A stretch of DNA of 64,000 bases from Bradyrhizobium sp. WBOS07 (lineage in GTDB: Bacteria > Pseudomonadota > Alphaproteobacteria > Rhizobiales > Xanthobacteraceae). This document shows, one piece after another, positions 44,221 through 64,000 of this stretch (the stretch's first letter is position 1; every line of letters begins with the position of its first letter). Both the position numbers and the translations under genes were made by a program. Location: positions 3,906,001 through 3,970,000 of the forward strand of contig NZ_CP029008.1 in NCBI RefSeq assembly GCF_024585165.1, in the 5' to 3' direction. The notes under the pieces were generated by a model. That model did no database searches, had not been told where the DNA came from, and was given only the letters and a program-made list of their open reading frames with translations.

Positions 44221-46656
44221 TTAGAACGTCACCCGCATCCCCGCATAGAACGCGCGCGGCCTGGCCGGGCTGAGCGAGCGCGGGTCGGTGAATTCGGCTC
44301 CCCCGTTGGCGAAGTTCGGCAGCGCTTCCCTGTCGAAGAACGTGCCGAGCGTGGAGTAGCGATTGTCGAAGATGTTGTTGACGCGCCCATAGAGCTGGAT
44401 GTTCCGGGTGATCTGGTAGGAGCTGTGGAGATTGAACACGGCGTAGGACGGGAGCTGTGGAAACTGGTTGGACTCGTCGCCGACGTAGTACTGGCTCGAA
44501 ACAAACAGCGCGTCGCCTCCGACTTTCCAAACGTCGGTCACCGCATATTCGACGCTGGCCTTGATGAGGTGCCGCGGCAAGCGCGGAATCTGGTTGCCCG
44601 GCAGGACCTGGATGTTGCCGTCGGCGTCTGCGAACGGGCTATCCGAGCCCAGCGTTAGCGCGTCGAGGAAGCGCGCATCGAGGAATGCATAGCTCGCCTG
44701 GAATTGCAGCACGTTCGACTTCACGCTCACCTCGGCTTCGAGCCCCTGCCTGCGCGTGCGACCAATGTTCTGGAAGAAGCCGAAGCCGGTCAAGCCGGGG
44801 ATCGGCGTCGCAACGATGTCGTCGTAATTGGTGGCCCGGAAAGCGCCGATCTTCCAACCGAGCGAACCGATCTGCAGTTCCTTGGTGCCGCGGAAGCCCG
44901 CTTCAACGGTCTTGGATACGACTTGCCGCAGCGGAGGATCGGCGACCAGGAATTGTCCGATGATGCAGGGCCTCGCCGGATCGGCGCAACCAAGCTCGAG
45001 CGGCGTCGGCACCCTGTTGGCCTCGGAATAGCCGGCATAGGCCGTCACTTCGGACGTGATCCTGAAGGTGCCTCCGACGATGGGATTGAAGCGGTAGAAG
45101 GCATGATCGCCGTTGAGCGCGGTGCCGAGCTGGTCCATCAGGGAAATCTGGGCGGCGTTGAACCGTCCGCCGCCAGTGACCGCAAAACGATCCGTCACGT
45201 CGAACGTGTCCAGTGCATAGAGGCCCTGATACTGGTTGACGGTGCGAAGCGACACCGGGCCGATCGACGTCGGCTCGCCCGACTGACCGAGGAATATGCC
45301 GCTGCCCGTGACGACGTAGTTGGTGCCGATCGTTCCCAGTTCGGTGCTGCCCGTGAAATGCGTCTTGCTGAGGTCGTAGCTTGCGCCGACCACGAAGCGG
45401 TTGCCGTGACCGAACAGCTGATCGGTGTTGGTCGCCTGTCCGGATATGCCAAACGACGTCGACTTGGTGGAGGTGCGATCGATCTGGCTGAGGATGGCAT
45501 CGGGGCCGAAGGTATTGGCGAGCTGCACGCCATTCAGGCCGAACGCGGGGACGTCGTCGTCGTCGAAGCAAAGCAGCGTCGGGTCGGCGCAAGGCACGGT
45601 ATCGGTCGGGTTACCGTCGACGGTACTTTGCTTGAAGTGCCGCAAACGCGCCGTGCCTTCGAAGGTCCAGGTCGGCGTTGCCTCCACCTTTCCGGTGAAG
45701 TTGAGATAGCCGACCTTGTTGGAGATGGTCTGCGGCGTCGTATAGGTGGCGCCCCAATATTGCTGGAGCAATTCGGCCGGAACGGTACTGGGGCCTGCCA
45801 AGGAGTTGTTGGCGACGCCGCCATTGAGATGGAATTCGCTGCCCTCGAAGCGATATCCGACATCGCCATAGAAGCGCCGCACGTCGGACGATGAAAAGTT
45901 GCGAAAGCCGTTGTCGTGAATGCCTTCGAGCGCGCCGTAGACGGACCAGTTCCTGTCGATCTGCTTGCCCCATTGCGCGGAGCCCTGAATGCGGCCGAAC
46001 GAGCCGCCCATGACGTCGATCTCGGCGCCCTGATAGTTGAAGCCGTTCTTCATCTGCAGATCGATGGCACCGCCGAGCGCATTGAGCCCATAGGCGGGAT
46101 TGTTGGTCACCGCGACGGCTGATCGGATCGCAGCCGTCGGAATCAGGTCCCAATTGACGATGTCGGAGAAGGCCTCGTTGATGCGGACACCGTTCTGGTA
46201 GACGGCGAGACCTTGCGGCGTGCCGGCGAGCGGCGACGCGACGTAGCCGCGAAACTGGATATCGGGCTGGAAGGGATTGCCGGTCACCTCATTGATGCTG
46301 ACGCCGGGCACGTGCTGCTGCAGGGCATCGGCGATGTTCGGCGAATTGGTGCGCCTGATCTGGCCAGCGTCGACCGCGTTGATCGCCGAGGGAACCTTGT
46401 CGACGTCGAGACCTCTGCCGCTGCCCGGCGAGGTCGGATAGACGTAAAGGCGGGTCCTCGGCGCGGCGGACGACGGTGCGCCGATGCGCGCGACGGGCCG
46501 GGACGGAGCACTCCGCCGCACGGCCGGTGGCGGTGCCTCGACCTCGACCGGCGGCAAATTCTGGATGTTGGTTTGCTCATCCGGCGCGGCGCCCGCGTCG
46601 GTCGCCATGACCATTCCCGTACAGATTGAAATTACGACCAGACCCCGAACGCCCAT
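44221..46656 (-). CDS. TonB-dependent outer-membrane receptor
   Basis: Energised outer-membrane importer (22-stranded barrel with plug). It has 811 residues. The signal peptide is about 1-23 (MGVRGLVVISICTGMVMATD). A Pro-rich linker is followed by the plug (about 95-215: PSAINAVDAGQIRRT, IADALQQHVPGVSINEVTGN, QFRGYVASPLAGTPQGLAVY). The barrel ends YAGMRVTF, with the terminal Phe expected for outer-membrane insertion. The ligand is unknown: divergent transcription from a PQQ alcohol dehydrogenase suggests a metal or cofactor, but a siderophore or a sugar (ABC importer on the other side) is also possible. Confidence 0.9.
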   Translation of the reverse strand: MGVRGLVVISICTGMVMATDAGAAPDEQTNIQNLPPVEVEAPPPAVRRSAPSRPVARIGAPSSAAPRTRLYVYPTSPGSGRGLDVDKVPSAINAVDAGQIRRTNSPNIADALQQHVPGVSINEVTGNPFQPDIQFRGYVASPLAGTPQGLAVYQNGVRINEAFSDIVNWDLIPTAAIRSAVAVTNNPAYGLNALGGAIDLQMKNGFNYQGAEIDVMGGSFGRIQGSAQWGKQIDRNWSVYGALEGIHDNGFRNFSSSDVRRFYGDVGYRFEGSEFHLNGGVANNSLAGPSTVPAELLQQYWGATYTTPQTISNKVGYLNFTGKVEATPTWTFEGTARLRHFKQSTVDGNPTDTVPCADPTLLCFDDDDVPAFGLNGVQLANTFGPDAILSQIDRTSTKSTSFGISGQATNTDQLFGHGNRFVVGASYDLSKTHFTGSTELGTIGTNYVVTGSGIFLGQSGEPTSIGPVSLRTVNQYQGLYALDTFDVTDRFAVTGGGRFNAAQISLMDQLGTALNGDHAFYRFNPIVGGTFRITSEVTAYAGYSEANRVPTPLELGCADPARPCIIGQFLVADPPLRQVVSKTVEAGFRGTKELQIGSLGWKIGAFRATNYDDIVATPIPGLTGFGFFQNIGRTRRQGLEAEVSVKSNVLQFQASYAFLDARFLDALTLGSDSPFADADGNIQVLPGNQIPRLPRHLIKASVEYAVTDVWKVGGDALFVSSQYYVGDESNQFPQLPSYAVFNLHSSYQITRNIQLYGRVNNIFDNRYSTLGTFFDREALPNFANGGAEFTDPRSLSPARPRAFYAGMRVTF

Positions 46657-46769
46657 CCGTCTCCACCCACATTTTCCGGCAATCTTGTTCCCCGCCGTTC
46701 AAGCCAACGTACAGGCCAAAAGCCGCAGCACGCCAGCCGTAAAAGGTCCGCCCTCTCAACGGCAGGAAA

Positions 46770-46786
46770 TCCCGATCAAATCGGGA
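46770..46786. promoter_or_regulatory. Palindrome 1 in the dehydrogenase control region
   Basis: TCCCGAT-CAA-ATCGGGA, perfect 7-bp arms. It shares CGGGA/TCCCG half-sites and a central CAA with palindrome 2, 64 bp away centre to centre. Confidence 0.5.
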
Positions 46787-47007: not shown

Positions 47008-49173
47008 ATGAGGCTGCGGGAACGCTTTTCCGTTCGAGATCTATTTGTCCGGCGCGTCCGCCGCCGCCTCGTCACGGGGTTCGCCGCCAGTCTTGGCGTC
47101 GCCGCGTCCATCGCCGCCGCAGGCGCGCAGGACACGACCAAGAGCTTGACGCCCGACAGCATCAAGGCCGCGATTGCCCAGGTCGACAGCGCCTACATCA
47201 AAGCCAATGCGGCGACATCCAACAATTGGCCGACGGTCGGCCTGGACTACGCCGAGACCCGCTTTTCGAAGCTCAATCAGATCACGAGCGACAACGTCAA
47301 GAGCCTCGGCCTGGTCTGGACCTACAATCTCGAATCCTCGCGCGGAGTCGAGGCGACGCCGGTCGTCGTCGACGGCATCATGTACCAGACGGCCTCCTGG
47401 AGCGTCGTGCATGCGATCGACGCGCGCACCGGCAAGCGCATCTGGACCTTCGATCCGCAAGTCAACCGCGAACTCGGCTACAAGGGCTGCTGCGATGTCG
47501 TCAACCGCGGCGTCGCGCTCTACAAGGGCAAGGTGTTCGTGGCTGCCTATGACGGCCGCCTGATCGCGCTCGACGCGGCAACCGGCAAGAAGGTCTGGGA
47601 AAAGGACACGCTGATCGACCACGAGCATTCCTACACCATCACCGGCGCGCCGCGCGTCTTCAACGGCAAGGTCGTGATCGGACAAGGCGGCGCCGAATAT
47701 GGCGCGCGCGGCTACGTCACCGCATACGATGCCGAAAGCGGAAACCAACTCTGGCGCTGGTTCACCGTGCCCGGCGATCCGTCGAAGCCGTTCGAAGACG
47801 AGTCGATGGAGAAGGCGGCCAAGACCTGGGATCCCGCCGGCCAATATTGGCTCAACGGCGGCGGCGGCACGCCATGGGACACCATCACCTTCGACCCCGA
47901 GCTCAACCTCGTCTATATCGGCACCGGCAACGGCTCGCCCTGGAACCGGAACGTGCGCAGCCCCGCCGGCGGCGACAATCTCTATCTCGCCTCGATCGTG
48001 GCGCTGAACGCCGACACCGGCAAATACGCCTGGCACTATCAGGAGACGCCCGGCGATCACTGGGACTACACTTCGACCCAGCCGATGATCCTCGCCGACA
48101 TCAGCATCGACGGCGCGCCGCGCAAAGTCATCCTGCACGCGCCCAAGAACGGCTTCTTCTTCGTGATCGACCGCACCAACGGCAAGTTCATCTCGGCGAA
48201 GAACTTCGTCGATGTGAACTGGGCCACCGGCTACGACGCCAACGGCCGCCCGATCGAGGTGCCGGCCGCGCGCGGCGATGCGGCCTACGACTCGATCCCG
48301 GGACCCTACGGCGCCCACAACTGGCATCCGATGTCGTTCAACCCGCAAACCGGGCTGGTCTATCTGCCGGCCCAGAACGTGCCGCTCAACCTCATCCCGG
48401 AAAAGAAATTCAAGCAGAATGCGGCAACGCCGGGCAAGTTCGGCGGCGCCACCGGCTGGAACGTCGGCTTCGTCCTGAATGGCGAGCCGCCCAAGAGTCT
48501 TCCGTTCGGGCGTCTGATCGCGTGGGACCCGGTCAGGCAGAAGGAAGCCTGGCGCGTCGAATACCCCTCGCCATGGAACGGCGGCACGCTGACCACGGCC
48601 GGAAACCTGGTGTTTCAGGGCACGGCGGATGGTCGGTTCGTCGCCTATGACGCCAAGACCGGAAAGGCGCTGTGGGAGACACCGACCGGCACCGGCGTCG
48701 TCGCTGCGGCTTCAACCTATATGCTCGACGGCGTGCAATATGTCTCGATTGCCGTCGGCTGGGGCGGTGTCTATGGCATGGCACAGCGGGCGACCGAGCG
48801 GCAAAGCCCTGGAACGGTGTACACGTTCGCGCTCAACGGCAAGGCGCCGCTGCCGGAATTCGTGAAGTACCAGACCGAGGGCCTGATCCAGGGCGTGAAG
48901 TACGATCCGAAGGACGTGCCGGAAGGAACGGCGCTCTATGTCGCCGCCTGCGCCACCTGCCATGGCGTGCCCGGTGTCGACAAGGGCGGCAACGTCCGCA
49001 ACCTCGGCTACGTGCCGGCGGAGGAGATCGCCAACCTCAAGAACATCGTGTTCAAGGGACCGTTCCGCGATAAGGGCATGCCGGACTTCACGGGCAAGCT
49101 GACGGAAGCCGATGTCGTGAAGATTCAGGCTTTCATCCAGGGCACGGCCGACGCCATACGCCCGAAGAAGTGA
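47008..49173 (+). CDS. Quinohaemoprotein alcohol dehydrogenase (PQQ and haem c, type II)
   Basis: Periplasmic enzyme oxidising primary alcohols with PQQ and passing electrons to its own cytochrome domain. It has 721 residues from the ATG at 47008 (GGAGGAA upstream), with a signal peptide ending near AGAQ (about 41). The propeller has the vicinal disulphide C161-C162 (YKGCCDVV) and catalytic D353 in GDHWDYTSTQP. The residue two after it is Thr355, as in calcium enzymes, not the Asp that marks lanthanide enzymes. The C-terminal cytochrome has C648-A-T-C651-H652 and M691. It closely resembles Comamonas testosteroni qhADH as remembered. PQQ synthesis genes are not in the window. Confidence 0.93.
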   Translation: MRLRERFSVRDLFVRRVRRRLVTGFAASLGVAASIAAAGAQDTTKSLTPDSIKAAIAQVDSAYIKANAATSNNWPTVGLDYAETRFSKLNQITSDNVKSLGLVWTYNLESSRGVEATPVVVDGIMYQTASWSVVHAIDARTGKRIWTFDPQVNRELGYKGCCDVVNRGVALYKGKVFVAAYDGRLIALDAATGKKVWEKDTLIDHEHSYTITGAPRVFNGKVVIGQGGAEYGARGYVTAYDAESGNQLWRWFTVPGDPSKPFEDESMEKAAKTWDPAGQYWLNGGGGTPWDTITFDPELNLVYIGTGNGSPWNRNVRSPAGGDNLYLASIVALNADTGKYAWHYQETPGDHWDYTSTQPMILADISIDGAPRKVILHAPKNGFFFVIDRTNGKFISAKNFVDVNWATGYDANGRPIEVPAARGDAAYDSIPGPYGAHNWHPMSFNPQTGLVYLPAQNVPLNLIPEKKFKQNAATPGKFGGATGWNVGFVLNGEPPKSLPFGRLIAWDPVRQKEAWRVEYPSPWNGGTLTTAGNLVFQGTADGRFVAYDAKTGKALWETPTGTGVVAAASTYMLDGVQYVSIAVGWGGVYGMAQRATERQSPGTVYTFALNGKAPLPEFVKYQTEGLIQGVKYDPKDVPEGTALYVAACATCHGVPGVDKGGNVRNLGYVPAEEIANLKNIVFKGPFRDKGMPDFTGKLTEADVVKIQAFIQGTADAIRPKK

Positions 49174-49252: not shown

Positions 49253-49912
49253 ATGCAGACCAGAGAGTTCAATTTGAGCCCGATACTCGTCGTCGATGAT
49301 CATCCAATCATCGCAGAAGCGTGCCGCGTCGTGCTGGGCGACGTCGAGGACGTCGTCGCTGCGCGTGATGTGCCGAGCGGCTATCAGGCATTCCTGGAGC
49401 ACCGGCCCGGAGTCGTCATCCTGGATCTGACCTTTCCCGGAGAAGCACTGGGCGGCGTCGACCTACTGCATCGCATCTCCTCGGATGCACCGCTCGCACG
49501 CGTGCTGGTTTTCAGCATGCATGCGGACGCAAGCATCGTCGCGTCCGCAATCAAGGCGGGAGCCATCGGATATCTGCTGAAGGACTCGGCACCGGACGAG
49601 CTGCCGAAGGCGGTGCGTCAGGTCAGGCTCGGTCATCGCTATGTCGACGAGCGGATCAATTTGCGCGGCGTGCCCCTGCCCGATCACGTCGAATTCGGCA
49701 AGGCCGCCACACTGACGCGCAGGGAAAGAGAGGCGCTCAGCCTGCTCGGCCAGGGAAACGCCTACTCTGCGATCGCCGAAGAGCTGGACATCACGCCGCG
49801 CGCCGTCGCGCGGCTCGTCAAGCAGGCGAGGATCAAGCTCGGGATCCGTCGCACCAGCGACCTGCTCCGCCTAGCGTACGAGCTCGCGGGCGGCGCAGAC
49901 GGTTCGAATTGA
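49253..49912 (+). CDS. LuxR-family (NarL/FixJ) response regulator 1
   Basis: DNA-binding response regulator. It has 219 residues from the ATG at 49253; ATG 49217 and TTG 49274 are alternatives and none has an ideal ribosome-binding site. The receiver domain starts ILVVDDHPIIAEACRVVLG, with the phospho-acceptor Asp in VVILDLTFPGEALGG and the conserved Lys in YLLKDSAPDEL. The C-terminal LuxR helix-turn-helix is LTRREREALSLLGQGNAYSA to RIKLGIRRTS. It follows the dehydrogenase gene and converges with the sensor kinase gene; control of the dehydrogenase is likely. Confidence 0.88.
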   Translation: MQTREFNLSPILVVDDHPIIAEACRVVLGDVEDVVAARDVPSGYQAFLEHRPGVVILDLTFPGEALGGVDLLHRISSDAPLARVLVFSMHADASIVASAIKAGAIGYLLKDSAPDELPKAVRQVRLGHRYVDERINLRGVPLPDHVEFGKAATLTRREREALSLLGQGNAYSAIAEELDITPRAVARLVKQARIKLGIRRTSDLLRLAYELAGGADGSN

Positions 49913-49939: not shown

Positions 49940-51298
49940 TCAGGACGCGGCCGTCGGAACCAAGGCCTCCACCGTCACCCCTCCGTCACCGGAGACGACA
50001 TTAAGCGTACCGCCCAGCGCCAGGATCCGCTCGCGCATGCCGACGAGGCCGAAGCCGAGCTTCTGGCCGGGCTCCATGCCGCGGCCATTGTCGCTGACCC
50101 GCACCCGGGCGCAGGAGCGGCCGTCGTGAGCCGTCTGCTCCGCCGGTTCGATGACGACATTGACCGAGGTCGCGCCGGCGTGGCGGAACACATTGGTGAG
50201 CGCCTCCTGCACGATGCGGTAGATGGTGAGATCGGCGGTCTCGCCGGTGGGCCCGAGCGCGGGTGAGATCACGGTCTCGACCGCGACATCCGGATGCGAT
50301 TCCCGCCACAGCCGCGACAGCGATTCCAGCGCCTGGCGCAGGCCGAGCTCGGCGAGCCCGACCGGGCGGAGGCGCTCCAGCACGCGGCGATTGAACTGCT
50401 GCAGGGCGTTGATCTGCTCCAGCATGGCGCTGCCGTGTTTTCGCACGGCTTCCGCATTGGGAACCCGTCCGTCCGCCTGCTTCGCCAGCGCGCCGGCATG
50501 TGCGCGCAACGAGAACAGATACGGCCCGAACTCGTCGTGGAGCTCGCGCGCGATCTCCTTGCGCTCGATATCCTGAAGCGAAACCGCTCGCTCGGCGAGG
50601 CGCCGCTTGTCCTCGACCGCCTCATGAAGCGTTGCGGCAAGGTGGTTGAGCTTGGTGCAGATCGCGGCGAGCTCCGGCGCACCGCCCGGCGTGACGCGGG
50701 CCTCGTAATGTCCGCCTTCGAGCTTCCCCATCGTCTCCGCCAGCGACTGCAGCGGCGCCAAGGCCCGGCCGACCACATTCATCATCAACAGGAACAGCGC
50801 CAGCGCGATCGCCGAGCCGACCTCGAGCTGGGTCACGATGCCGTCCCAGATCTCCGCGATCTCGTCATCGGGATGCGAGGTGATCAGGAGCGAACCGGGC
50901 CTGCCATGGACCGTTACCGGAACGCTCACCGCGGTCTGGTCGGGGTGAACCAGGCTGACGAACCAGGCTGGTGGCCCGTGCGTGTCGGCATCGGCATCGG
51001 CCCGCGGCGGCGTCAGCGGATGGCCAGCGGCATCCCGGAGCGTGATGCTGACATGGCGAAGACGGCTGAGATCGCGGGCGATCTGGTTCAGCCTGGCGTC
51101 CGGATCGGGGGCTTCGTTGAGGTCGGCCACGATCATTTCGATGAATTCGCGCGCGAGGCGGATCACGCTCTGGTCCTCGGCCTGCACGCGGGGACCTGCC
51201 TCCGCGACCTGGCGGCCGATATTGACGGCGAGCCCCAGCGCCAGCAGCAGCGCCAGCAGGAGGTTGATGCGCCCGCGCAAGGATAGATTTTGCCACAT
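49940..51298 (-). CDS. NarX/DegS-type membrane sensor histidine kinase
   Basis: Inner-membrane histidine kinase that would phosphorylate one or both flanking regulators. It has 452 residues from the ATG at 51298. The N-terminal membrane helix is about 10-27 (INLLLALLLALGLAVNIG), followed by a periplasmic domain (about 30-160), a second helix (SAIALALFLLMMNVVG, about 160-176), HAMP, and the HisKA_3 box IARELHDEFGPYLF with the phospho-His. The ATPase domain has ALTNVFRHA (N-box) and DNGRGMEPG (G-box). The sensed signal is unknown, perhaps alcohol or aldehyde. Confidence 0.9.
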   Translation of the reverse strand: MWQNLSLRGRINLLLALLLALGLAVNIGRQVAEAGPRVQAEDQSVIRLAREFIEMIVADLNEAPDPDARLNQIARDLSRLRHVSITLRDAAGHPLTPPRADADADTHGPPAWFVSLVHPDQTAVSVPVTVHGRPGSLLITSHPDDEIAEIWDGIVTQLEVGSAIALALFLLMMNVVGRALAPLQSLAETMGKLEGGHYEARVTPGGAPELAAICTKLNHLAATLHEAVEDKRRLAERAVSLQDIERKEIARELHDEFGPYLFSLRAHAGALAKQADGRVPNAEAVRKHGSAMLEQINALQQFNRRVLERLRPVGLAELGLRQALESLSRLWRESHPDVAVETVISPALGPTGETADLTIYRIVQEALTNVFRHAGATSVNVVIEPAEQTAHDGRSCARVRVSDNGRGMEPGQKLGFGLVGMRERILALGGTLNVVSGDGGVTVEALVPTAAS

Positions 51299-51513
51299 GG
51301 GTATCGCTCGTGCCTCGCGAAGCTCTGCCCGCCGCTGTCCGATGACGTTGACAGGGGCGGAGCGGCGGATATCTAATCGGAAGCGTACAGCAATCCCGGC
51401 CGGGTTGCATGAGGCGAGCTCGGACACATCGCTCACGCGCCTGTCCCAGGTCGGTATCATGCGGCGCAGAGCAGGCAAGTTCATTACAGGAAACGCTGTC
51501 ACGGGGAACGCCT

Positions 51514-52134
51514 ATGCGCATTCTGATCGTGGATGATCATCCCATCGTCGCCTCCGGCTGCCGCGCCGTGCTGGCCGACGAGGGCGAGATCGAGATTTTG
51601 GAGGCCGCCGACGCCGAAGACGGCGAATGCGTCTTCATCGTCGAACGTCCCGACCTCTGCATCATCGACATCAATCTGCCGACCGTCTCCGGATTCGAGC
51701 TCGCGCGCCGCATTCTCGAACGCGCGCCCGAGGCCCGCATCATCATGTTCAGCATGAACGACGACCCGGCTTTCGCCGCGCGCGCGATCGAATGCGGGGC
51801 CAAGGGCTACGTCTCCAAGACCGGCGACCCCGACGACCTCGTCGAGGCGATCCGCGCCGTCGGCGGCGGCGGCACGTACCTGCCGAGCGCGATCGCGCGC
51901 AGCATCGCCTTCGCCGGGCCGACGCTGGCGCAAAGCCCATTGTCGAAGCTGAACGCGCGCGAGATGGAGATTCTGCGGCTGCTCAGCGCCGGAAAGAGCC
52001 TGTCGGAGATCGCCTGGCTGGTGCAATCGTCGTACAAGACGGTCGCCAACACCTCCTCCATCATGCGCCAGAAGCTCGGCGTGAAGACCTCGGTCGAGCT
52101 GGTGCGGTTGGCGATCGACAGCGGTGTCGCCTGA
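51514..52134 (+). CDS. LuxR-family (NarL/FixJ) response regulator 2
   Basis: Second response regulator, divergent from the sensor kinase. It has 206 residues from the ATG at 51514 (GGGGAA upstream). The receiver starts MRILIVDDHPIVASGCRAVL, the phospho-acceptor Asp is in LCIIDINLPTVSGFEL, and the Lys is in GYVSKTGDPDDL. The helix-turn-helix is LNAREMEILRLLSAGKSLSE to SSIMRQKLGVKTSVEL. The promoter lies between it and the kinase. The protein resembles regulators of PQQ alcohol dehydrogenases (ExaE/AgmR-like) in type. Confidence 0.9.
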   Translation: MRILIVDDHPIVASGCRAVLADEGEIEILEAADAEDGECVFIVERPDLCIIDINLPTVSGFELARRILERAPEARIIMFSMNDDPAFAARAIECGAKGYVSKTGDPDDLVEAIRAVGGGGTYLPSAIARSIAFAGPTLAQSPLSKLNAREMEILRLLSAGKSLSEIAWLVQSSYKTVANTSSIMRQKLGVKTSVELVRLAIDSGVA

Positions 52135-55086: not shown

Positions 55087-55217
55087 CCCCCTCCCCCGCG
55101 AGCGGGGGAGGGTTGGGGAGAGGGTGTCTCGGCTCGCGAGAGCCCCCAAGAGGAAAGAGCCCTCTCCCGTATCGCATCTTTCGATGCGATACGACCTCCC
55201 CCGCAAGCGGGGGAGGT
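55087..55217. repeat. Palindromic intergenic repeat F inside the operon
   Basis: Outer arms CCCCTCCCCCGCGAGCGGGG (from 55087) and CCTCCCCCGCAAGCGGGGGAGG (ending 55217) are each self-complementary; inside lies GTATCGCATC/GATGCGATAC (55169-55178, 55183-55192). It separates two genes of the operon. Its forward frame is open and runs into the beta-propeller gene, creating a false N-terminal extension. Confidence 0.8.
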
Positions 55218-55245
55218 GACGACCGCCCGCGGGCGGATATCACGC

Positions 55246-56205: not shown

Positions 56206-57008
56206 CCAGCCTTGCGCCGAGTCCCGAACCACAGGAGGCGCCGAGGCTGGAGACGGCAGCGGTGCCGGCGCTGTCGATCGACGGCGTCAGCCATGCCTAT
56301 GGGTCGCGCCGGGCGCTGATCGACGTCTCTTTCGATGTGCAGCCGGCAAGCTTTACGGCCCTGCTCGGCCTCAACGGCGCCGGCAAGAGCACGCTGTTCT
56401 CGCTCATCACGCGCCTGTTCGGCATCCAGTCCGGCCGTGTCGTCATCTTCGGTCACGACATCAGCAAGAGTCCCGGCGAGGCGCTGCGGCTGCTGGGGGT
56501 GGTATTCCAGCCGCGCACGCTCGACCTCGACCTGTCGCTGACGCAGAACCTGCTCTATCACGCCGCACTCCACGGCATCGGCCGGAGCGAGGCCGCAGCG
56601 CGCAGCGCCGAGCTGCTCGGCCGCATCGGGCTGGACGAGCGCGCCGGCAGCAAGGTACGCGATCTCTCGGGCGGACAGATGCGGCGGCTGGAGATCGCGC
56701 GGGCGCTGCTGCACCGGCCGCGGCTGTTGTTGCTCGACGAGCCGACGGTCGGCCTCGATGTCAAGGCGCGCGCCGACATCATCGGCCAGGTCCGCCAGCT
56801 CGTGACGGAGCAAGGCATCGGCGTGCTCTGGGCCACGCACCTGTTCGACGAGATCATGCCCAGCGACGACCTCGTGGTGCTGCACCAGGGCAAGGTGCTG
56901 GCGCGGGGGCCGATGAGCCGCGTCGTCACGGAGGCCGGCGCGCAGGACGTCAACACCGCCTTCATGCGCCTGACCGGTGCGCAAACGTTGCCGGGAGGCG
57001 GCGCATGA
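56202..57008 (+). CDS. ABC ATPase, PQQ-dehydrogenase-associated exporter
   Basis: ATPase subunit of an ABC-2-type exporter (family TIGR03864 by memory). It has 268 residues. Walker A is LLGLNGAGKSTLFSL (about 54-68), the signature is DLSGGQMRRLEIARALL, Walker B LLLLDEPTVGLDVKAR, and H-loop ATHLFDEI. An Ala/Pro/Glu-rich N-terminal extension of about 25 residues precedes the domain. It overlaps the propeller and permease genes by 4 bp on each side, so the operon is tightly coupled. Confidence 0.9.
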   Translation: MTSLAPSPEPQEAPRLETAAVPALSIDGVSHAYGSRRALIDVSFDVQPASFTALLGLNGAGKSTLFSLITRLFGIQSGRVVIFGHDISKSPGEALRLLGVVFQPRTLDLDLSLTQNLLYHAALHGIGRSEAAARSAELLGRIGLDERAGSKVRDLSGGQMRRLEIARALLHRPRLLLLDEPTVGLDVKARADIIGQVRQLVTEQGIGVLWATHLFDEIMPSDDLVVLHQGKVLARGPMSRVVTEAGAQDVNTAFMRLTGAQTLPGGGA

Positions 57009-57853
57009 GCAGCATCACGGCGCGCGAGGCCCCGCGTGGCTTCTCATTCGCCGAGTACATGACCTGTCTCACCGGCATCGTCTGGCGCGAGGGCCTGCGC
57101 TTCCTGCATCAGCGCGAGCGCTTCGTCTCGGCGCTGGTGCGGCCGCTGGTGTGGCTGTTCATCTTCGCCGCCGGCTTCCGCCAGGTGCTCGGCATCTCCA
57201 TCATCCCGCCCTACGAGACCTACATCCTCTACGAGGTCTATATCGCGCCCGGGCTGATGGCGATGATCCAGCTCTTCAACGGCATGCAGTCATCGCTGTC
57301 CATGGTCTACGACCGCGAGATGGGCAACATGCGTACGCTCCTGGTGAGCCCGCTGCCGCGCGGGTTCCTGCTGTTCTGCAAGCTGCTGGCGGGGACCGCG
57401 GTGTCGCTGCTCCAGGTCTATGCGTTCCTTCTGATCGCCTGGTTCTGGGACATCACCCCGCCGTCGTCGGGCTATCTCACCGTGCTGCCGGCGCTGATCC
57501 TGTCCGGGCTGATGCTCGGCTCGCTCGGCATGCTGATCTCCTCCGGAATCAAGCAGCTGGAGAACTTCGCCGGGGTCATGAACTTCGTCATCTTTCCGAT
57601 GTTCTTCGCCTCCTCCGCGCTCTATCCGCTCTGGCGGGTCCAGGAAGGCAGCCCTTATCTGTACTATCTCTGCGAGGCCAATCCGTTCACCCATGCGGTC
57701 GAGCTGATACGTTTTGCACTTTACGGGCAGATCAACTGGATCGCGCTGGCGGTGGTTGCAGCTTGCACAATCGTCTTCATGATCGGTGCAATTCTGGCCT
57801 ATGATCCCTCGCGTGGGCTGGCGCGACGGGGGCCCGCAGGAGGCGAAGGATGA
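57005..57853 (+). CDS. ABC-2 type permease, PQQ-dehydrogenase-associated exporter
   Basis: Inner-membrane permease partner of the ATPase just upstream (PedC-like, TIGR03861 by memory). It has 282 residues and six hydrophobic helices. Typical ABC-2 features are ERFVSALVRPLVWLFIFAAG (about 39-58), EVYIAPGLMAMIQLFNGMQS, a cytoplasmic segment MVYDREMGNMRTLLVSPLPR and a late motif ASSALYPLWRVQE. The cargo is unknown. The end overlaps the next gene by 4 bp. Confidence 0.9.
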   Translation: MSSITAREAPRGFSFAEYMTCLTGIVWREGLRFLHQRERFVSALVRPLVWLFIFAAGFRQVLGISIIPPYETYILYEVYIAPGLMAMIQLFNGMQSSLSMVYDREMGNMRTLLVSPLPRGFLLFCKLLAGTAVSLLQVYAFLLIAWFWDITPPSSGYLTVLPALILSGLMLGSLGMLISSGIKQLENFAGVMNFVIFPMFFASSALYPLWRVQEGSPYLYYLCEANPFTHAVELIRFALYGQINWIALAVVAACTIVFMIGAILAYDPSRGLARRGPAGGEG

Positions 57854-58458
57854 AGGTTCTGGCGATGGCTGTTCTGACACTCGCGCTGTCGGGCACGGTC
57901 GCCCGCGCGGCCGATCCGCGCTACCCCAACTGGCCGTGCACGCAGGCCAAGGTGCCAGAGATCTCGCTCGCCGCCGTCTGGGCGGGGCCCGCGCTCGACG
58001 ACGCCGAGACCAGGTGGAAGAACGACGCGAAAATCACCGCCCTGGTCGCAAAGCTGTCGGCGCGCAAGACCCCGATGGACGAGGCCGCGAAGCTGGTGAA
58101 GGACTTCCTGGCTGCCTCTTCCGCCGACAAGACGACCAACGCAAAGCTGCTGTTCGCCGGCCTGTTCGATACCCTCAACGCCCAGCGCTCGCAGGTCATG
58201 AACGGGCTCGAACGCGTCAGCCGCAAGCAGCGCGAGGCCGCCGACAAGATCCGCGAGGAGGCAATCCAGCTCCAGGCGCTTCAGGGCGCCACGCCGCGTG
58301 ACGAGGCCAAGGTCGAGGCGCTCAGCAACGAGCTGATCTGGAAGACCCGCATTTTCGAGGACCGCAACAAGGTGGTGCGGTTCGTCTGCGAGGTTCCAAC
58401 CACGATCGACCAGCGCCTGTTCGCGCTCGGCCGCGTGATTCAGCAGGAGATGGAATAG
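57850..58458 (+). CDS. Secreted hypothetical protein of the exporter operon, 202 aa
   Basis: Function not recognised. It has a signal peptide (MKVLAMAVLTLALSGTVARA, 20) and a mature part that is mostly helical and charged (LVAKLSARKTPMDEAAKLVK, then QVMNGLERVSRKQREAADKI). Two Cys (PNWPCTQ, RFVCEVP) could form a disulphide. It overlaps the permease by 4 bp, so it belongs to the same operon as the propeller, ATPase and permease. Confidence 0.8.
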   Translation: MKVLAMAVLTLALSGTVARAADPRYPNWPCTQAKVPEISLAAVWAGPALDDAETRWKNDAKITALVAKLSARKTPMDEAAKLVKDFLAASSADKTTNAKLLFAGLFDTLNAQRSQVMNGLERVSRKQREAADKIREEAIQLQALQGATPRDEAKVEALSNELIWKTRIFEDRNKVVRFVCEVPTTIDQRLFALGRVIQQEME

Positions 58459-58593: not shown

Positions 58594-58893
58594 ATGGGAA
58601 CCACCAAGTTTATCTGGGCGGGCGCTGCGGCCCTCAGCCTGCTCGCAACCAGCGCTGTTGCTGACGACATGACCGGCATGGTGATGCGGATCGATCGGCT
58701 CAACGGCACGATCTCGATCCAGCAGACGCAGAAGGGCACGGTCGGCGCCAGCACCGGAAGTGCCGGCGCGCTCCAGGAATACAAGGCCAAGGACGCCGCG
58801 ATGCTGGACGCCGTTCATGCCGGCGACAGGGTGAACTATTCTGCGACCGACAATAACGGCACCGGCACCCTGACCAAGTTGCAGAAGCAATAG
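58594..58893 (+). CDS. CusF-like copper-binding protein
   Basis: Small periplasmic protein of the CusF/CopK-like OB fold, possibly a copper chaperone. It has 99 residues. Signal peptide MGTTKFIWAGAAALSLLATS to AVAD (about 24), then DDMTGMVMRIDRLNGTISIQ, which contains a Met cluster (M25, M28, M30 region), and DAVHAGDRVNYSATDN. The order of secondary structure fits CusF; the exact metal ligands are not confirmed. Copper could link to electron transfer from the dehydrogenase, but this is inferred. A divergent repeat (58908-58994) follows. Confidence 0.72.
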   Translation: MGTTKFIWAGAAALSLLATSAVADDMTGMVMRIDRLNGTISIQQTQKGTVGASTGSAGALQEYKAKDAAMLDAVHAGDRVNYSATDNNGTGTLTKLQKQ

Positions 58894-59047: not shown

Positions 59048-59605
59048 CTATTGCTCCGGCCGCGGTTCCGGCTGCGACTCTTCTGTCGGAAGCTTGGCCC
59101 GTTCCCATCCGTCGGTGCCGTCGGGGTACCAGGCGATGTTGGAATAGCCATAGGCCAGCGCGCGCTTGGCGGCGTTCCAGGACATCCAGCAATCGGCGAG
59201 GCAATAGATCACCAGCAGCGCGGCCTTGTCGCCGCCCGCGACACGAGCGAGCCCCCGCTGGAAATAGTCATCCATGGCCGGCGGCAAGGTGCCGTAGCCG
59301 GTATCCGGCAGCCAGACGCTGCCCGGAATGTTCCTGCGCGGCGCATCGCGCCACACCGTGCCTTCCGGAAGATTCTTGGGCTTCGGCGGGCGCGGCAGCA
59401 CGTCGATGAACACGCCGCTCTTGGCGCGCCAGATCGCTTCGGCGTCCGCCGTGGTCAGCACTCGCGCGCCGGCCAGCGTCGCCGGCACCGGCGCGCGATA
59501 ATTGTCGGCGCGATAATTCTCAGGCTCGAATGGCTCCTGCTGCTGCGCCTGAACCGGCGCCGCCAGCACGGCAGCGAGGAGCACAACGGCGGGAAGCCGC
59601 CTCAT
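59048..59605 (-). CDS. PQQ-catabolism-associated rhodanese-like Cys-Trp motif protein
   Basis: Periplasmic protein of the PQQ-associated Cys-Trp family (TIGR03865 by memory). It has 185 residues. Signal peptide MRRLPAVVLLAAVLAAPVQA (20). The rhodanese-like region is about 45-165, with C135, C139 and W140 in YCLADCWMSWNAAKRAL, so the spacing is C-x3-C-W here. A GTDGWE segment follows. The active Cys could shuttle thiol or persulphide equivalents; unproven. It lies 24 bp downstream of the binding-protein gene, as one operon. Confidence 0.85.
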   Translation of the reverse strand: MRRLPAVVLLAAVLAAPVQAQQQEPFEPENYRADNYRAPVPATLAGARVLTTADAEAIWRAKSGVFIDVLPRPPKPKNLPEGTVWRDAPRRNIPGSVWLPDTGYGTLPPAMDDYFQRGLARVAGGDKAALLVIYCLADCWMSWNAAKRALAYGYSNIAWYPDGTDGWERAKLPTEESQPEPRPEQ

Positions 59606-59629: not shown

Positions 59630-60511
59630 TTACGGTGTTTTCTTGGCCGTCTCCGCATTGAGCGGCCGATCGCTTTCGTCGAGCAGCGGAACGCCGAAGT
59701 CGAGCAGGATCTTGTTGATCTCGCCCTGGTTCTCCTGGATCAGCTTGTTGAGCTGCCGTTTCCAGTTCTGGTCGGCGGGACGCACGCCCATTCCGATGCG
59801 GTAGACCAGCTTCGGCCCCGTGGTCTCCTTCACCAGCGGCGTGACATGAAGCGATCCGACCTTCTTCGCGTAGTAGCCGGCCATCGGCCCCCACAGCACG
59901 CCGGCGTCGATCTTGCCGGCCGCGAGGTCGTCGATCATGGCCTGCGCCGAATTATCGTAGCGCGTGTCGACCATCAGCGGATAGGGTTTCGCATTGCTCA
60001 TCAGGCCGGCGATGGCCATGTTGGTCGCCGGCGGGGTGCCGGCGACGATGCCGACATGCTTGCCCTTCAACTTCGGATCCTCCAGCGTATCGACGCCGTC
60101 GAGTCCGCTGCCGGTCTTGGCGACCAGCGCATAGGTGGTGCGATAATAGGGATTGGTGCCTTGCACGACGTCATCGCCCTGCGGAAAGCCCATGATGACG
60201 TCGCAGCGATGCGCGCCCAACGTCATCCGCACGAAGCCCGTGGCTTGCGGGAAGAAGACATAGTCGAGCTTCTTCTTGAGCCTGTCCGCAAACAGCTCGG
60301 CCAGCTTGTTCTCGAACCCCTCGCCCTTTTCATTCGAGAACGGCAGATTGCGTGGATCGGCACAGACGCGCAGCACGTTCGGATCGACCAGCTCGAACGA
60401 GAGGTCGCCGCTGTCATTGGTCTGCGCAACGGCGACATCGCCGAGCGCGCAGGACGCAACCAGGACCCACAGTGAAAACAACCAGCGACGATGTCGTCCG
60501 GCCTCCGTCAT
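59630..60511 (-). CDS. Quinoprotein-associated MoxJ/XoxJ-like binding protein
   Basis: Periplasmic protein of the amino-acid-binding (family 3) fold that accompanies PQQ dehydrogenases (MoxJ/XoxJ-like; TIGR03871 by memory) and may help dehydrogenase maturation or electron transfer rather than import. It has 293 residues from the ATG at 60511 (GAGGAGGAAG upstream). Signal peptide ends near VAVAQ (29). Core segments: LRVCADPRNLPFSNEKGEGF, DYVFFPQATGFVRMTLGAHR, CDVIMGFPQGDDVVQ, GKIDAGVLWGPMAGYYAK. Longer open frame upstream is not typical. Confidence 0.85.
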   Translation of the reverse strand: MTEAGRHRRWLFSLWVLVASCALGDVAVAQTNDSGDLSFELVDPNVLRVCADPRNLPFSNEKGEGFENKLAELFADRLKKKLDYVFFPQATGFVRMTLGAHRCDVIMGFPQGDDVVQGTNPYYRTTYALVAKTGSGLDGVDTLEDPKLKGKHVGIVAGTPPATNMAIAGLMSNAKPYPLMVDTRYDNSAQAMIDDLAAGKIDAGVLWGPMAGYYAKKVGSLHVTPLVKETTGPKLVYRIGMGVRPADQNWKRQLNKLIQENQGEINKILLDFGVPLLDESDRPLNAETAKKTP

Positions 60512-60638: not shown

Positions 60639-61565
60639 GTGTCTCGCATCGCTCGAGTGATCGCAGCCTTGTCCCTGCTGGGGACAGCAACGCTAGCACG
60701 GGCCGGGGCGGCCGAATTGCCTGTGAGCGAAGTCGCGCCGGGAATCTTCGTACACTCCGGGGCCATTGCCCTGATGAGCCGTGAGAACGAGGGCGACATT
60801 GCCAATGTCGGCTTCATCGTGGGCGATGATGGCGTGGCTGTCATCGACACCGGCGGCAGCGTGCGCGAAGGCGAGGCCCTGCTGGCGGCGGTGCGGGCCC
60901 GTACGCCCAAGCCGATCCGCTATGTCATCAACACCCACGGCCACCCCGACCACGTCTTCGGTAACGCGGCCTTCGCCACCACAGGCGCAAGCTTCGTCGG
61001 CCATGGCAAGCTGCCCCAGGCGCTCGCGACGCGCGGGCCTCACTATCTCGACAATTTTCGCCGCATCATGGGTAGCGAGCTGATCGATCCCGTGAGGATC
61101 ATTGCTCCCACCCTCCTGGTTTCGGACACGATGACGCTCGATCTCGGGTCACGTCGCCTAACCTTGCGTGGCTGGCGGGCCGGACATAGCGACAACGACG
61201 TCACCGTGTACGACGAGACGACCAGGACCCTGTTTGCAGGCGACCTCGTCTTTCTCCGCCACATTCCGGTCATGGACGGCAGCATCCGCGGCTGGCTCGA
61301 CACGTTGAAGGAGCTGGAGGCGATTCCGGCGCAGCGTGTCGTTCCCGGTCACGGCCCCGTGAGCGACTGGCCCGCCGCGCTGGCCGACGAACGGCGTTAC
61401 CTGTCAACGCTGCTGTCCGACGTCCGCGCCTCGAACAAGAAAGGCGAGCCGATCCGGGCCGCCGCCGACAAGGCGGCTGCCGAGGAGCGACCGCGCTGGG
61501 AGCTGTTCGGCGATTACAACGCCCGGAACGCAACTGCAGCATTCTCGGAAATTGAATGGGAGTAG
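60639..61565 (+). CDS. Quinoprotein relay system zinc metallohydrolase (MBL fold)
   Basis: Periplasmic metallo-beta-lactamase-fold hydrolase of the group linked to quinoprotein dehydrogenases (TIGR04559-like by memory). It has 308 residues, starting at GTG 60639. Signal peptide ends near ARAGA (about 24). The zinc-binding motif is [12 protein letters not shown] (about 108-119), with later His in VVPGHGPV and Asp in LFAGDLVFL. It is divergent from the MoxJ-like gene and upstream of the SoxYZ-like gene with which it is probably co-transcribed. Substrate unknown. Confidence 0.87.
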
Positions 61566-61645
61566 CCGGCGCGCTAACATAAGCAGATCGGCTTCGCTGA
61601 CATCCGGGGACGAGATCGGCTTCGCTGTCTCAGAGGACCATGACC

Positions 61646-62464
61646 ATGACGGGATGCACACGCCGCCTGCCCCTGATCGCCGCACTGCTCGGCATCGCCT
61701 TTGCCATGCCGGTGCAGGCCGAAGAAGCCTACGATCCCTGGCCGGGCCTGGTGCAGGACATCTTCAATGGCCGTCCGATGAATGACGGCAGCGCCGTCAT
61801 CGGCATCGAGATGCCGTATCGCGCCGAGGACGCGGCGATCGTGCCGGTGACCCTGCGCAGCAAGCTGTCGCCCGCAGACAGCCGACGGATCCGTTCGATC
61901 ACGCTCGTGATCGACCGTAACCCGGCGCCGATGGCGGCGAAGTTCGAGCTCGGCGCCGATGCCAATGTCACCGAGATCTCGACGCGCGTGCGTGTCAACA
62001 ATTACACCGACGTCCACGCGGTGGCCGAGCTCAGCGACGGCCAGCTCTATGTCTCGAAGGTCTACGTAAAAGCCTCCGGGGGCTGCTCGGCGCCGGCGGG
62101 AAAGAATGTCGAGGAAGCCAACAGCCGGCTCGGCAAGATGCGCTACCGGCAGTTCGCGCGCGAGGAAGCGCCGGCGAGCCGCGTCCGCGAAGCGCAGATC
62201 ATGATCGGCCATCCCAACAATTCCGGCCTGCAGATGGACCAGGTCACGCAGCTCTATATTCCCGCCTTCTTCATCAACCAGCTGAAGCTGACGCAGGACG
62301 ACAGCCCCGTGCTGTCGATGGAAGGCGGCATCTCGATCTCGGAAGATCCCAATCTGCGCTTCACCTACGTCTCCAACGGCGCCAAGCGTTTCCGCGCGGA
62401 AGCCAGGGACACGGAGGGACACGTGTTCCGCAACGAGTGGGATGTCGAGAAGCCGGGGACTTAG
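61646..62464 (+). CDS. Quinoprotein-associated SoxYZ-like carrier protein
   Basis: Fusion of SoxY- and SoxZ-like domains, found with PQQ dehydrogenases (TIGR04557 by memory). It has 272 residues from the ATG at 61646; AGAGGA gives ideal spacing there but not for the ATG at 61640. Signal peptide ends near VQAE (about 26). The SoxY-like part has the conserved Cys in KASGGCSAPAGKN (about 147-158), which would carry a covalently bound thiol group. The SoxZ-like part (about 180-272) follows. Its partner is likely the metallohydrolase upstream. Role in alcohol oxidation unproven. Confidence 0.87.
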   Translation: MTGCTRRLPLIAALLGIAFAMPVQAEEAYDPWPGLVQDIFNGRPMNDGSAVIGIEMPYRAEDAAIVPVTLRSKLSPADSRRIRSITLVIDRNPAPMAAKFELGADANVTEISTRVRVNNYTDVHAVAELSDGQLYVSKVYVKASGGCSAPAGKNVEEANSRLGKMRYRQFAREEAPASRVREAQIMIGHPNNSGLQMDQVTQLYIPAFFINQLKLTQDDSPVLSMEGGISISEDPNLRFTYVSNGAKRFRAEARDTEGHVFRNEWDVEKPGT

Positions 62465-62622: not shown

Positions 62623-62630
62623 AGAAATCT

Positions 62631-62990
62631 TCAGAAGCACCGCACTTCGGCTTCCGCCTGCGCCCGCCGCAGATCGTTCATTGCCGTGTTGGCCTGCTCC
62701 GATGTGCGGAACTGGACGCCGAGATTGCCTCGCACCTGCGACATGCTGAGCGCGGTCTCCGCGGTCACATAGCGCTCATAGGGGATGATTGAGGCCACCA
62801 CGTCGATCGAGCAGGAACATTGCTCGATCGATTGCCGGCTCTCGCCATTGGCCTTCATGCAGCCATAGACGTACTCCGCGCGCGCCGACGTGGGATAATC
62901 ATTGACGTCCTCGGCCTGCGCCACGCACGACGTCGCCGCCAGCACCGTCAATGCGGCGACAATCGGTCGTAGCTGTCCGGCCAGTTTCAT
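62631..62990 (-). CDS. Secreted Cys-containing hypothetical protein, 119 aa
   Basis: Function not recognised. From the ATG at 62990 (GGGAGG 6 nt upstream) it has a signal peptide (MKLAGQLRPIVAALTVLAAT to VAQAE, about 27) and a mature part with YVYGCMKANGESRQSIEQCS, CSIDVVASIIPYERYVTAET and a final AEVRCF. Four Cys in the mature part suggest two disulphides. The pattern recurs, from memory, next to quinoprotein genes. It converges on the SoxYZ-like gene and is divergent from the binding-protein gene at 63078. Confidence 0.72.
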   Translation of the reverse strand: MKLAGQLRPIVAALTVLAATSCVAQAEDVNDYPTSARAEYVYGCMKANGESRQSIEQCSCSIDVVASIIPYERYVTAETALSMSQVRGNLGVQFRTSEQANTAMNDLRRAQAEAEVRCF

Positions 62991-63077
62991 GCGCATCCTC
63001 CCGCTGGTTGCGACCAAAGCTATGCTATGCGTATTGTCCTGAAAAGCACTCTGTCAGAGGAAACGGCTCACAAGGTG

Positions 63078-64000
63078 ATGAGAGCACTTGGGCTGATAAG
63101 GGCACTTGGCCTGATAAGGGCACTTGGTCGACCGTTGGCGGTCGCGGCGACGCTGGCGCTGATGCTGGCCGCACCCGGCCGCGCCGCGGAGACCATCCGC
63201 CTTGCAGTGCAGAAAACCGGAACGTTCTCCTGGGAGCTGGCCGCGATCCGCGCCAGCGGGCTCGACAAGGAAGCGGGCCTCACGCTGGAGGTCACCGAGC
63301 TCGCGAGCACCGAGGCCGGCAAGATCGCAATGCGCGCAGGCAGCGCCGACATCATCCTGTCGGACTGGCTGTGGGTGTCGCGCGAGCGAGCGCTCGGTGC
63401 CAAGCTCACTTTCTATCCCTACTCCAGTGCGCTCGGCGCGGTGATGGTGCCGGCGTCATCGCCGATCAAGTCGCTTGCCGACTTGAAGGGCCGCAAGCTC
63501 GCTGTCGCGGGCGGAGCAATCGACAAGAGCTGGCTGCTGCTGCAGGCGCGCATGAAGCAGGACGGCATCGACCTGAAGTCTGAGGCGACCGTCGTCTATG
63601 GCGCCCCGCCCCTGCTCGCAGCCAAGGCGCTCGACGGCGAGATGGAGGCCAGCCTCAACTTCTGGAATTTCTGTGCCCAGCTCGAAGCCAAGGGTTTCAG
63701 GCGCCTCGCCGGCATCGAAGACATTCTACCGAAGCTGGGCGCCAAGGGCGCCGTCTCCGCGGTCGGTTACGTCTTCGACGAGAATTGGGCCGCGAGCCAT
63801 CGCGACGCCGTGGCGCGCTTCATCGCCATGACCCGCAAGGCCAAGCAATTGCTGGTCAGCTCGGATGCGGCCTGGGACAAGATCGCGCCGCTGACCGGCA
63901 CGAGCGATGTCACCCTGCTCAAGACCTATCGCGAGCGCTATCGCGACGGTATTCCACGCCGGAGCATCGCCGAGGAGGAACAGGACGCGCGCGTGCTGTA
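63078..64000 (+). CDS. ABC transporter substrate-binding protein (NitT/TauT type), 3' end missing
   Basis: Periplasmic binding protein of the nitrate/sulphonate/taurine/thiamine-precursor type. The visible 307 residues start MRALGLIRALGLIRALGRPL, part of an unusually long signal peptide that contains 18-bp tandem repeats (63081-63130) and ends near GRAAE (about 38). The segments KTGTFSWELAAIRASGLDKE, ADIILSDWLWVSRERALGAK and NFWNFCAQLEAKGFRRLAGI fit the family. The gene runs off the right edge without a stop codon. An ABC ATPase/permease pair may follow beyond the window. Confidence 0.85.
   Translation, partial: MRALGLIRALGLIRALGRPLAVAATLALMLAAPGRAAETIRLAVQKTGTFSWELAAIRASGLDKEAGLTLEVTELASTEAGKIAMRAGSADIILSDWLWVSRERALGAKLTFYPYSSALGAVMVPASSPIKSLADLKGRKLAVAGGAIDKSWLLLQARMKQDGIDLKSEATVVYGAPPLLAAKALDGEMEASLNFWNFCAQLEAKGFRRLAGIEDILPKLGAKGAVSAVGYVFDENWAASHRDAVARFIAMTRKAKQLLVSSDAAWDKIAPLTGTSDVTLLKTYRERYRDGIPRRSIAEEEQDARVL
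63081..63130 (+). repeat. 18-bp tandem repeats in a signal-peptide coding region
   Basis: AGAGCACTTGGGCTGATA (63081-63098), AGGGCACTTGGCCTGATA (63099-63116) and AGGGCACTTGGTCG (63117-63130) repeat in frame as RALGLI-RALGLI-RALG. Slippage could change signal-peptide length in six-residue steps without a frameshift. Confidence 0.8.

Follow-up and report, generated by a model that had tools for sequence, protein, structure and literature searches.

A probable lanthanide-type alcohol-oxidation island in Bradyrhizobium sp. WBOS07 that joins lut, xox and glutathione-pathway genes with a ped-type trio of thiol proteins

Lanthanide-dependent alcohol oxidation has been studied in two organisms whose gene clusters are the closest described relatives of the locus presented here. 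For the lut cluster of M. extorquens, mutants in lutA, lutE and lutF are reported to retain their La deposits in the periplasm (PMC7391723), and homologues of lutA, B, E, F and G have been reported for Bradyrhizobium (PMC12628762). For the ped cluster of Pseudomonas putida, the loss of pedA1A2BC is described as raising the La3+ requirement of PedH-dependent growth about 100-fold, with PedE-dependent growth unchanged (PMC6839425). In strain KT2440, the ped cluster combines PedA1A2BC, the PedG binding protein and calcium- as well as lanthanide-type dehydrogenases, and the account in PMC12997753 also lists a rhodanese-like protein (PP_2666), a SoxYZ-like protein (PP_2677) and a SoxH-like protein (PP_2678). 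Two further arrangements are relevant: fused SoxYZ-S2/S4 genes with soxH have been described beside quinohaemoprotein alcohol dehydrogenase genes or xoxF (PMC11237559), and in Bradyrhizobium and Sinorhizobium xoxF is reported to be clustered with genes of the glutathione pathway (PMC12628762). Here, we have analysed a stretch of 64,000 nucleotides of Bradyrhizobium sp. WBOS07 (the window; positions 3906001-3970000 of the 6.73 Mb single-contig genome), which carries an island of genes of all these kinds.

We conclude, with a probability of roughly 85%, that this island is of the lanthanide (Ln) alcohol/methanol-oxidation type, a known kind, and that it combines lut, xox and glutathione genes with a ped-type trio. 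This estimate applies jointly to three modules: a first one for Ln supply, a second one for oxidation, and a third one consisting of a metallohydrolase, a SoxYZ fusion and a CX3CW rhodanese as a separate unit, the chemistry of which lies outside the figure. The island starts at about 44.2 kb in the window, extends about 15.3 kb past its end (the stretch past the end is called L001 here) and thus goes beyond the window itself. An earlier note on this DNA had listed a quinoprotein gene with a set of accessory genes: these are all present, as confirmed by curated profiles (TIGR/NCBIfam) and Pfam, most of them over the curated cut-offs (Table 1). That reading had missed the TonB receptor (44221-46656), the LutG-like gene (57850-58458) and everything past the end of the window. 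As in the lut cluster of M. extorquens and its reported Bradyrhizobium homologues (PMC7391723, PMC12628762), LutA, the propeller, LutE, LutF, a LutG-like protein, a TonB receptor and lanmodulin are found in one island; unlike there, the receptor gene is separated from lutA by about 7 kb that include the regulators and fghA, and the lut genes are interleaved with xox and trio genes. The ped cluster differs in that the WBOS07 island includes a XoxF-like enzyme and the glutathione-dependent formaldehyde genes, and in that P. putida is described as devoid of a LutH-like receptor (PMC12997753), whereas the island has one.

The assignment of the first module starts from the transporter. Its four genes are contiguous (53862-57853), and all score over the curated cut-offs. 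In two other loci, L254 and L255, the order is DUF3280, LutA, propeller, ATPase, permease, LutG-like protein and TonB receptor, in agreement with the lut and ped genes as listed in PMC7391723, PMC12997753 and PMC6839425, and the genes of the window match one for one. The identities to the L254/L255 proteins amount to 43-46% for LutA, 62-63% for the propeller, 59-60% for the ATPase, 65-68% for the permease, 33-35% for the LutG-like protein and 41-42% for the receptor. By its position the propeller would correspond to LutB; several other loci have no LutG-like gene following the permease. The earlier note had regarded the transporter as an ABC-2 exporter that no scheme joins to alcohol oxidation. 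In view of its match to the lanthanide transporter of the lut and ped clusters (PMC6839425, PMC7391723), this claim fails: judged from homology and gene order, the transporter is most likely the known lut/ped lanthanide uptake system.

The distribution of the transporter points in the same direction. All co-occurrence counts refer to a single, fixed set of 299 genomes from the phylum, in which the TIGR03866 propeller served as the sole marker of the transporter. This marker is present in 53 genomes, each of them among the 83 genomes with a TIGR03075 quinoprotein (Fisher p 1e-37; the Fisher p values given here ignore relatedness), and the 83 genomes span 24 families, 16 of which have the marker. 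Moreover, at least one dehydrogenase with the Ln-type DxD motif was read in all 53 marker genomes and in at least 9 of the remaining 30 genomes with a quinoprotein (Fisher p 6e-13); at most four candidates were scored per genome and not all copies were read, so the absence of DxD has to be taken as a lower bound. Some of these DxD motifs stand in an odd context, with SNQ or STQ right after them (G247, G140, G219), and an enzyme of G203 has Gly in both places.

For the passage of Ln3+ through the outer membrane, the island offers a TonB-dependent receptor as a candidate. It is 41-45% identical over 706-806 aligned positions to receptors adjoining lut genes in L254, L255, L260 and L261, including 42% over 761 positions to the L254 receptor at the putative lutH position. 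No LutH model came up in the NCBIfam search of the receptor, and an identity as PqqU was rejected (NF041535, 80.8 bits against a cut-off of 1200). The lanmodulin gene lies about 4 kb past the end of the window, just upstream of the frame of a DxD quinoprotein dehydrogenase; three of its four EF-hand loops have Pro at position 2 (DPDRDGT, DPDRDGT and NPDKDGT), and the first one reads DTDNDGT. Lanmodulin genes adjoin lut genes in L258 and L260 as well, and in L255 an open reading frame (ORF) with three lanmodulin-like EF-hands adjoins the receptor gene. Within the window, the stretch at 40-64 kb has no ORF with at least two EF-hand motifs. By analogy to the experiments in the related systems, the receptor, LutA, the propeller, LutE/LutF, the LutG-like protein and lanmodulin would carry Ln3+ across both membranes. 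A DUF3280 gene is divergent from lutA in 46 of the 71 cases in which lutA has 1.2 kb or more of upstream sequence: 39 of 49 in named loci, 6 of 21 in loci of the G genomes (L120, L132, L151, L254, L255 and L258) and the one in the window. It is a candidate lut-associated gene.

The second module is for the most part located past the window. There, the remainder of a sulfonate-type ABC importer is followed by lanmodulin, a quinoprotein dehydrogenase with the motif FDYD and an SBP_bac_3 binding-protein frame, and further on by the XoxF-like dehydrogenase (WDYD), a cytochrome-c-like protein with one CxxCH that scores just under the Pfam cut-off, the class III alcohol dehydrogenase gene flhA and gfa, the last two over the curated cut-offs. 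Together with fghA in the window, flhA and gfa provide for the glutathione-dependent conversion of formaldehyde to formate. We propose that the XoxF-like enzyme and the second DxD dehydrogenase, with the cytochrome and the XoxJ-like protein, oxidize alcohol in the periplasm, and that Gfa, FlhA and FghA would process formaldehyde to formate in the cytoplasm. The quinohaemoprotein does not seem to be the centre of the island. Its metal motif, GDHWDYTSTQP, is of the DxT rather than the Ln-type DxD form, and the enzyme is thus probably calcium-type, as judged from this motif. Moreover, in G185 (L152) fghA, the regulator, the kinase and the TonB receptor are consecutive in the absence of both the quinohaemoprotein gene and the first regulator, which makes the quinohaemoprotein look like an optional addition, probably a calcium-type one that comes with its own regulator. 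Further quinoprotein frames of the genome are found at L003:6383-8212 (~C1:886400, WDYD) and at L002:1-1140 (~C1:3990000, WDWD, no Cys pair aligned).

The third module, the trio, is closely tied to quinoprotein genomes. The fused SoxYZ is present in 39 of the 299 genomes, and all 39 have a TIGR03075 quinoprotein, as compared to 83 of 299 overall (Fisher p 6e-26). This count is what was kept of 50 genomes: the other 11 had TIGR04557 rows over the cut-off but with internal stops, they were read as separate soxY and soxZ, and none of them is among the 83 quinoprotein genomes. The CX3CW protein occurs in 35 genomes, all with a quinoprotein and all within the 39, and the metallohydrolase at its cut-off in 26, again all with a quinoprotein. 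The earlier note had named homologues occurring mostly apart from quinoprotein genes as the outcome that would speak against it; the opposite was observed, and the grouping of quinoprotein and accessory genes is not due to chance, as the values for the SoxYZ fusion and the propeller marker indicate. For the metallohydrolase, the tie is limited to proteins over the cut-off: at E<=1e-30, it extends to 76 genomes, which include all 39 with fused SoxYZ and 30 without a quinoprotein. The nested genome sets of the three proteins suggest that the trio tends to travel as a set.

The gene neighbourhoods agree with this picture. Among 40 fused SoxYZ genes at 37 loci of the G genomes (several from one genome each in G137, G221, G204, G245 and G271), the hydrolase gene is found within 3 kb in 33 cases, the CX3CW gene within 10 kb in 27 and a quinoprotein gene within 10 kb in 24. 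In 80 named loci, which are mostly from Bradyrhizobium and some of which are shortened by contig ends, the corresponding numbers are 77, 71 and 54. Bare runs of metallo-beta-lactamase-fold (MBL) hydrolase, SoxYZ and CX3CW genes with no quinoprotein gene within 10 kb were observed in L121, L122, L125 and L126. As for the transporter, which the earlier note had grouped with the thiol proteins, fused SoxYZ is absent from 16 of the 53 marker genomes, and the marker from 2 of the 39 genomes with SoxYZ; because of this, a role of the transporter in a thiol relay was rejected. Thus, the trio is separable from the transporter and, by position, from the quinoprotein.

Several observations weigh against this interpretation of the island. 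The lut assignment builds on homology and gene order, and in the sample 9 genomes have a DxD enzyme but no propeller marker. For the trio, 38 of the 39 fused-SoxYZ genomes have a DxD enzyme; the remaining one, G054, has no propeller marker, and the enzymes read there are of the DxS and DxT types alone. Conversely, 24 of the 62 genomes in which a DxD enzyme was read are without fused SoxYZ. Ln enzymes thus do not require the trio, nor does the trio occur exclusively with them. It is not always complete either, as the CX3CW protein is missing in 4 of the 39 genomes.

The residues and the predicted structures of the trio proteins are consistent with a function in thiol chemistry. Identical rows and rows with less than 70% coverage were excluded from the comparison. 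The Cys of SoxYZ is identical in all 125 distinct rows, and it is the sole Cys of the window protein after the predicted signal peptide. In the rhodanese, all 99 distinct rows agree in both Cys residues, in the Trp after the second one and in the subsequent S-W-N; despite the family name CXXCW, the motif is C-x3-C-W and not C-x2-C-W in all 99. The metal ligands of the hydrolase (HxHxDH, His, Asp, His) are each kept in 110-115 of 115 distinct rows. The SoxYZ model (mean predicted local distance difference test score, pLDDT, of 89.3) matches SoxY and SoxZ structures (PDB 2ox5, 4uwq). Residues 111-120 around the Cys have a mean pLDDT of 61, and this stretch of the model is compatible with a mobile arm, albeit one tethered at both ends. 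The CX3CW model (pLDDT 90.7) has a rhodanese fold, with rhodaneses as the best PDB matches (E from 1e-4, TMq 0.4-0.5). Compared to the canonical SoxYZ of thiosulfate oxidation, the protein shares both domains, the fold and one Cys after Gly-Gly; it differs in being fused, in having its Cys inside the chain instead of on a free C-terminal arm, and in its scores. It is neither a true SoxY (TIGR04488, 68.3 bits against a cut-off of 125; internal GGCSAP instead of a C-terminal GGCGG arm) nor a true SoxZ (TIGR04490, 43.9 bits against 76). With these cut-offs missed and SoxB over its cut-off in 19 of the 39 trio genomes, thiosulfate oxidation proper was rejected as the function of the trio. Ordinary thiosulfate-oxidation genes are present elsewhere in the genome: SoxB scores over the cut-off at C1:3553305 and C1:1595130, with SoxY/SoxZ-type matches nearby.

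What could the trio do? A periplasmic protein-thiol cycle is plausible, and we tentatively rank first the idea that it shields PQQ against sulfur nucleophiles by sulfur scavenging, even though this is rather less than an even bet. The rhodanese would pass sulfane or sulfite-derived sulfur to the single Cys of SoxYZ, and the metallohydrolase would release the oxidized group. This order reflects the fact that all three proteins belong to sulfur-handling families, and that SoxH replaces SoxB in sulfate release from SoxY in Sulfurimonas, as cited in PMC11237559. Related proposals are in print: protection of PQQ from sulfur nucleophiles is suggested in PMC12997753, beside disulfide formation or cofactor stabilization, and protection of methanol dehydrogenase from thiosulfate in PMC11237559. 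A Sox(YZ) fusion with YeeE/PmpAB nearby is mentioned in PMC11582611. Two points weaken sulfur scavenging: near the trio, we recognised no oxidant of a carrier-bound group, and 20 of the 39 trio genomes have no SoxB above the cut-off. In addition, disruption of the trio in P. putida is reported to have had minimal effect in medium deficient in rare-earth elements (PMC12997753), and none of its three locus tags given there is mentioned in the body of the M. extorquens transposon paper. The reported P. putida result, obtained without Ln, also counts against the proposal of the earlier note, taken here in an open form: some group, sulfur or other, would be handed on in covalent linkage by the CX3CW protein and the Cys of SoxYZ until the zinc enzyme cleaves it off, as a step of alcohol oxidation itself. 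The invariant relay cysteines, the low-confidence and probably mobile stretch that carries the SoxYZ Cys, the near-complete metal site of the hydrolase and the proximity of the three genes would all fit such a relay. The absence of fused SoxYZ from 44 of the 83 quinoprotein genomes speaks against it, and we consider this relay somewhat less likely than sulfur scavenging. We know of no adduct on the SoxYZ Cys, which we count against it as well.

The same 44 genomes bear on a third possibility, named in PMC12997753, according to which the quinoprotein would owe the formation or repair of its vicinal disulfide to the trio. A rhodanese-fold protein with a conserved CX3C pair and the tie of the trio to quinoprotein genomes are in its favour. 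However, of the 53 dehydrogenases read from the genomes without fused SoxYZ, 52 have the vicinal Cys pair, and the trio can thus not be a general requirement for this disulfide; overall, the pair was seen in 168 of 173 aligned rows, counting the reference row, with a gap in 4 of the other 5. We therefore regard this role as unlikely. It is tempting to consider the SoxYZ thiol as a trap for the aldehyde (or a C1 unit) delivered by the quinoprotein: the adduct would be oxidized to a thioester, from which the zinc MBL-fold hydrolase would free the acid. If true, SoxYZ would do outside the cytoplasm, as a protein, what glutathione or tetrahydromethanopterin does inside it, in a self-contained periplasmic carrier pathway. 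A literature search combining all terms of this idea gave no paper, which is no proof of absence. Some neighbourhoods are suggestive. In L147 and L149, the trio is followed by molybdopterin oxidoreductase and NuoF-like genes of the formate-dehydrogenase type; in L149, it lies on one strand between these genes and a DxS quinoprotein with cytochrome b561 and cytochrome c. In L116:11486-14816, it adjoins genes for GXGXG, FTR formyltransferase and amidohydrolase proteins, in the manner of a formyltransferase/hydrolase complex, and soxYZ-S4 is reported to be clustered with fdhAB and xoxF (PMC11237559). The flanks scanned comprise 20 hand-picked proteins from 10 loci, 8 of them without a family, and no enzyme for the oxidation step was seen. 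Moreover, the rhodanese is not obviously needed, WBOS07 already has Gfa, FlhA and FghA, and P. putida uses longer alcohols despite having the trio, so that this pathway appears highly unlikely. Still more improbable in our view is the remaining alternative, which concerns the transporter: that it truly exports alcohol, a PQQ precursor or a chelator instead of importing Ln. ABC-2 permeases are usually of the export type. PedB is annotated as an efflux ATPase in a table of PMC12997753. Both the increased La3+ requirement in the absence of PedA1A2BC, specific for PedH (PMC6839425), and the periplasmic La deposits of the lut mutants (PMC7391723) point to uptake instead, as does the DxD enzyme in each of the 53 marker genomes.

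Table 1. Genes of the island in the window and past its end (L001). Corrected gene starts are chosen internal Met codons and are presumptive. Bits are given with the cut-off of the profile.
Feature	Position	Strand	Evidence and remarks
TonB-dependent receptor, LutH-like (proposed outer-membrane lanthanide-chelate receptor)	44221..46656	-	Pfam Plug + barrel
Quinohaemoprotein alcohol dehydrogenase, DxT, vicinal Cys-Cys	47008..49173	+	TIGR03075 686 bits (480); cytochrome c domain; mechanical ORF starts 46882
LuxR-type response regulator adjoining quinohaemoprotein gene	49253..49912	+	Response_reg + GerE; ORF begins 49199, presumed internal Met start
Histidine kinase, MoxY-like	49940..51502	-	LapD_MoxY_N, HAMP, HisKA_3, HATPase
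LuxR-type response regulator, presumed partner of kinase	51514..52134	+	Response_reg 94 bits + GerE
fghA, S-formylglutathione hydrolase	52209..53054	+	TIGR02821 411 bits (282)
DUF3280 protein	53229..53732	-	PF11684 187 bits; divergent from lutA
LutA/PedA1-like periplasmic binding protein	53862..55043	+	TIGR03863 498 bits (414)
PedA2-like beta-propeller at LutB position	55246..56205	+	TIGR03866 520 bits (287); ORF from 55054, presumed internal Met start
LutE/PedB-like ABC ATPase	56202..57008	+	TIGR03864 339 bits (302)
LutF/PedC-like ABC-2 type permease	57005..57853	+	TIGR03861 (PedC) 410 bits (241)
LutG-like exported protein	57850..58458	+	no Pfam family over cut-off; 33-38% identity to post-permease gene in L254, L255, L257, L258, L263
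CusF-like small exported protein	58594..58893	+	PF11604 41 bits (27)
CX3CW rhodanese-like exported protein (trio)	59048..59605	-	TIGR03865 246 bits (128)
MoxJ/XoxJ-like periplasmic binding protein	59630..60511	-	TIGR03871 305 bits (212); SBP_bac_3; ORF extends to 60910
Metallo-beta-lactamase-fold hydrolase, SoxH-like (trio)	60639..61565	+	TIGR04559 397 bits (280)
Fused SoxYZ-like carrier (trio)	61640..62464	+	TIGR04557 284 bits (140); SoxY + SoxZ Pfam domains in one chain; single invariant Cys in GGCSAP
Small exported Cys-containing protein	62631..63017	-	no family over threshold; recurrent neighbour, 71/80 named loci
NMT1/SsuA-like binding protein, first gene of ABC importer past window	63027..63998	+	PF09084 49 bits
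ABC importer permease	L001 3-833		translation reading alone
ABC importer ATPase	L001 823-1533		Pfam
Lanmodulin	C1:3974079-3974567 (L001:4079-4567)	-	NF053806 174.6 bits (135); PDB 6mi5 E 7e-31
XoxF-like dehydrogenase	L001:10781-12898		extra Asp two residues after catalytic Asp, HDEWDYDGVNE (WDYD); XoxF assignment within DxD enzymes presumptive

Some of the smaller genes recur at other loci as well. The CusF-like protein encoded after the LutG-like gene was matched in 35 of the 80 named loci, and all 11 of the matches listed are from Bradyrhizobium. The mature part of the window protein has no Trp, so that the copper site of CusF is probably absent. A matching NMT1/SsuA-like binding protein (>150 bits) is present in 51 of the 80 named loci and in L114, L118, L128, L151, L152, L261 and L263. 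An Rfam search of the window at 40-64 kb gave no match, and clustering of the neighbours without preset families mostly returned the known seeds and antisense frames.

The fused carrier and the SoxH-like hydrolase adjoin quinoprotein genes as do the SoxYZ-S2/S4 genes, the role of which is a matter of speculation where PMC11237559 discusses them; here, however, the rhodanese and the lut genes are part of the same block. The supposedly unexplained exporter most likely finds its place in a known pathway, the uptake of rare earths, and the question narrows down to the three conserved genes of the trio. In our sample, the SoxYZ fusion, the CX3CW protein and, at its cut-off, the hydrolase occur only in genomes with quinoproteins, and the invariant cysteines make the chemistry of the trio testable.

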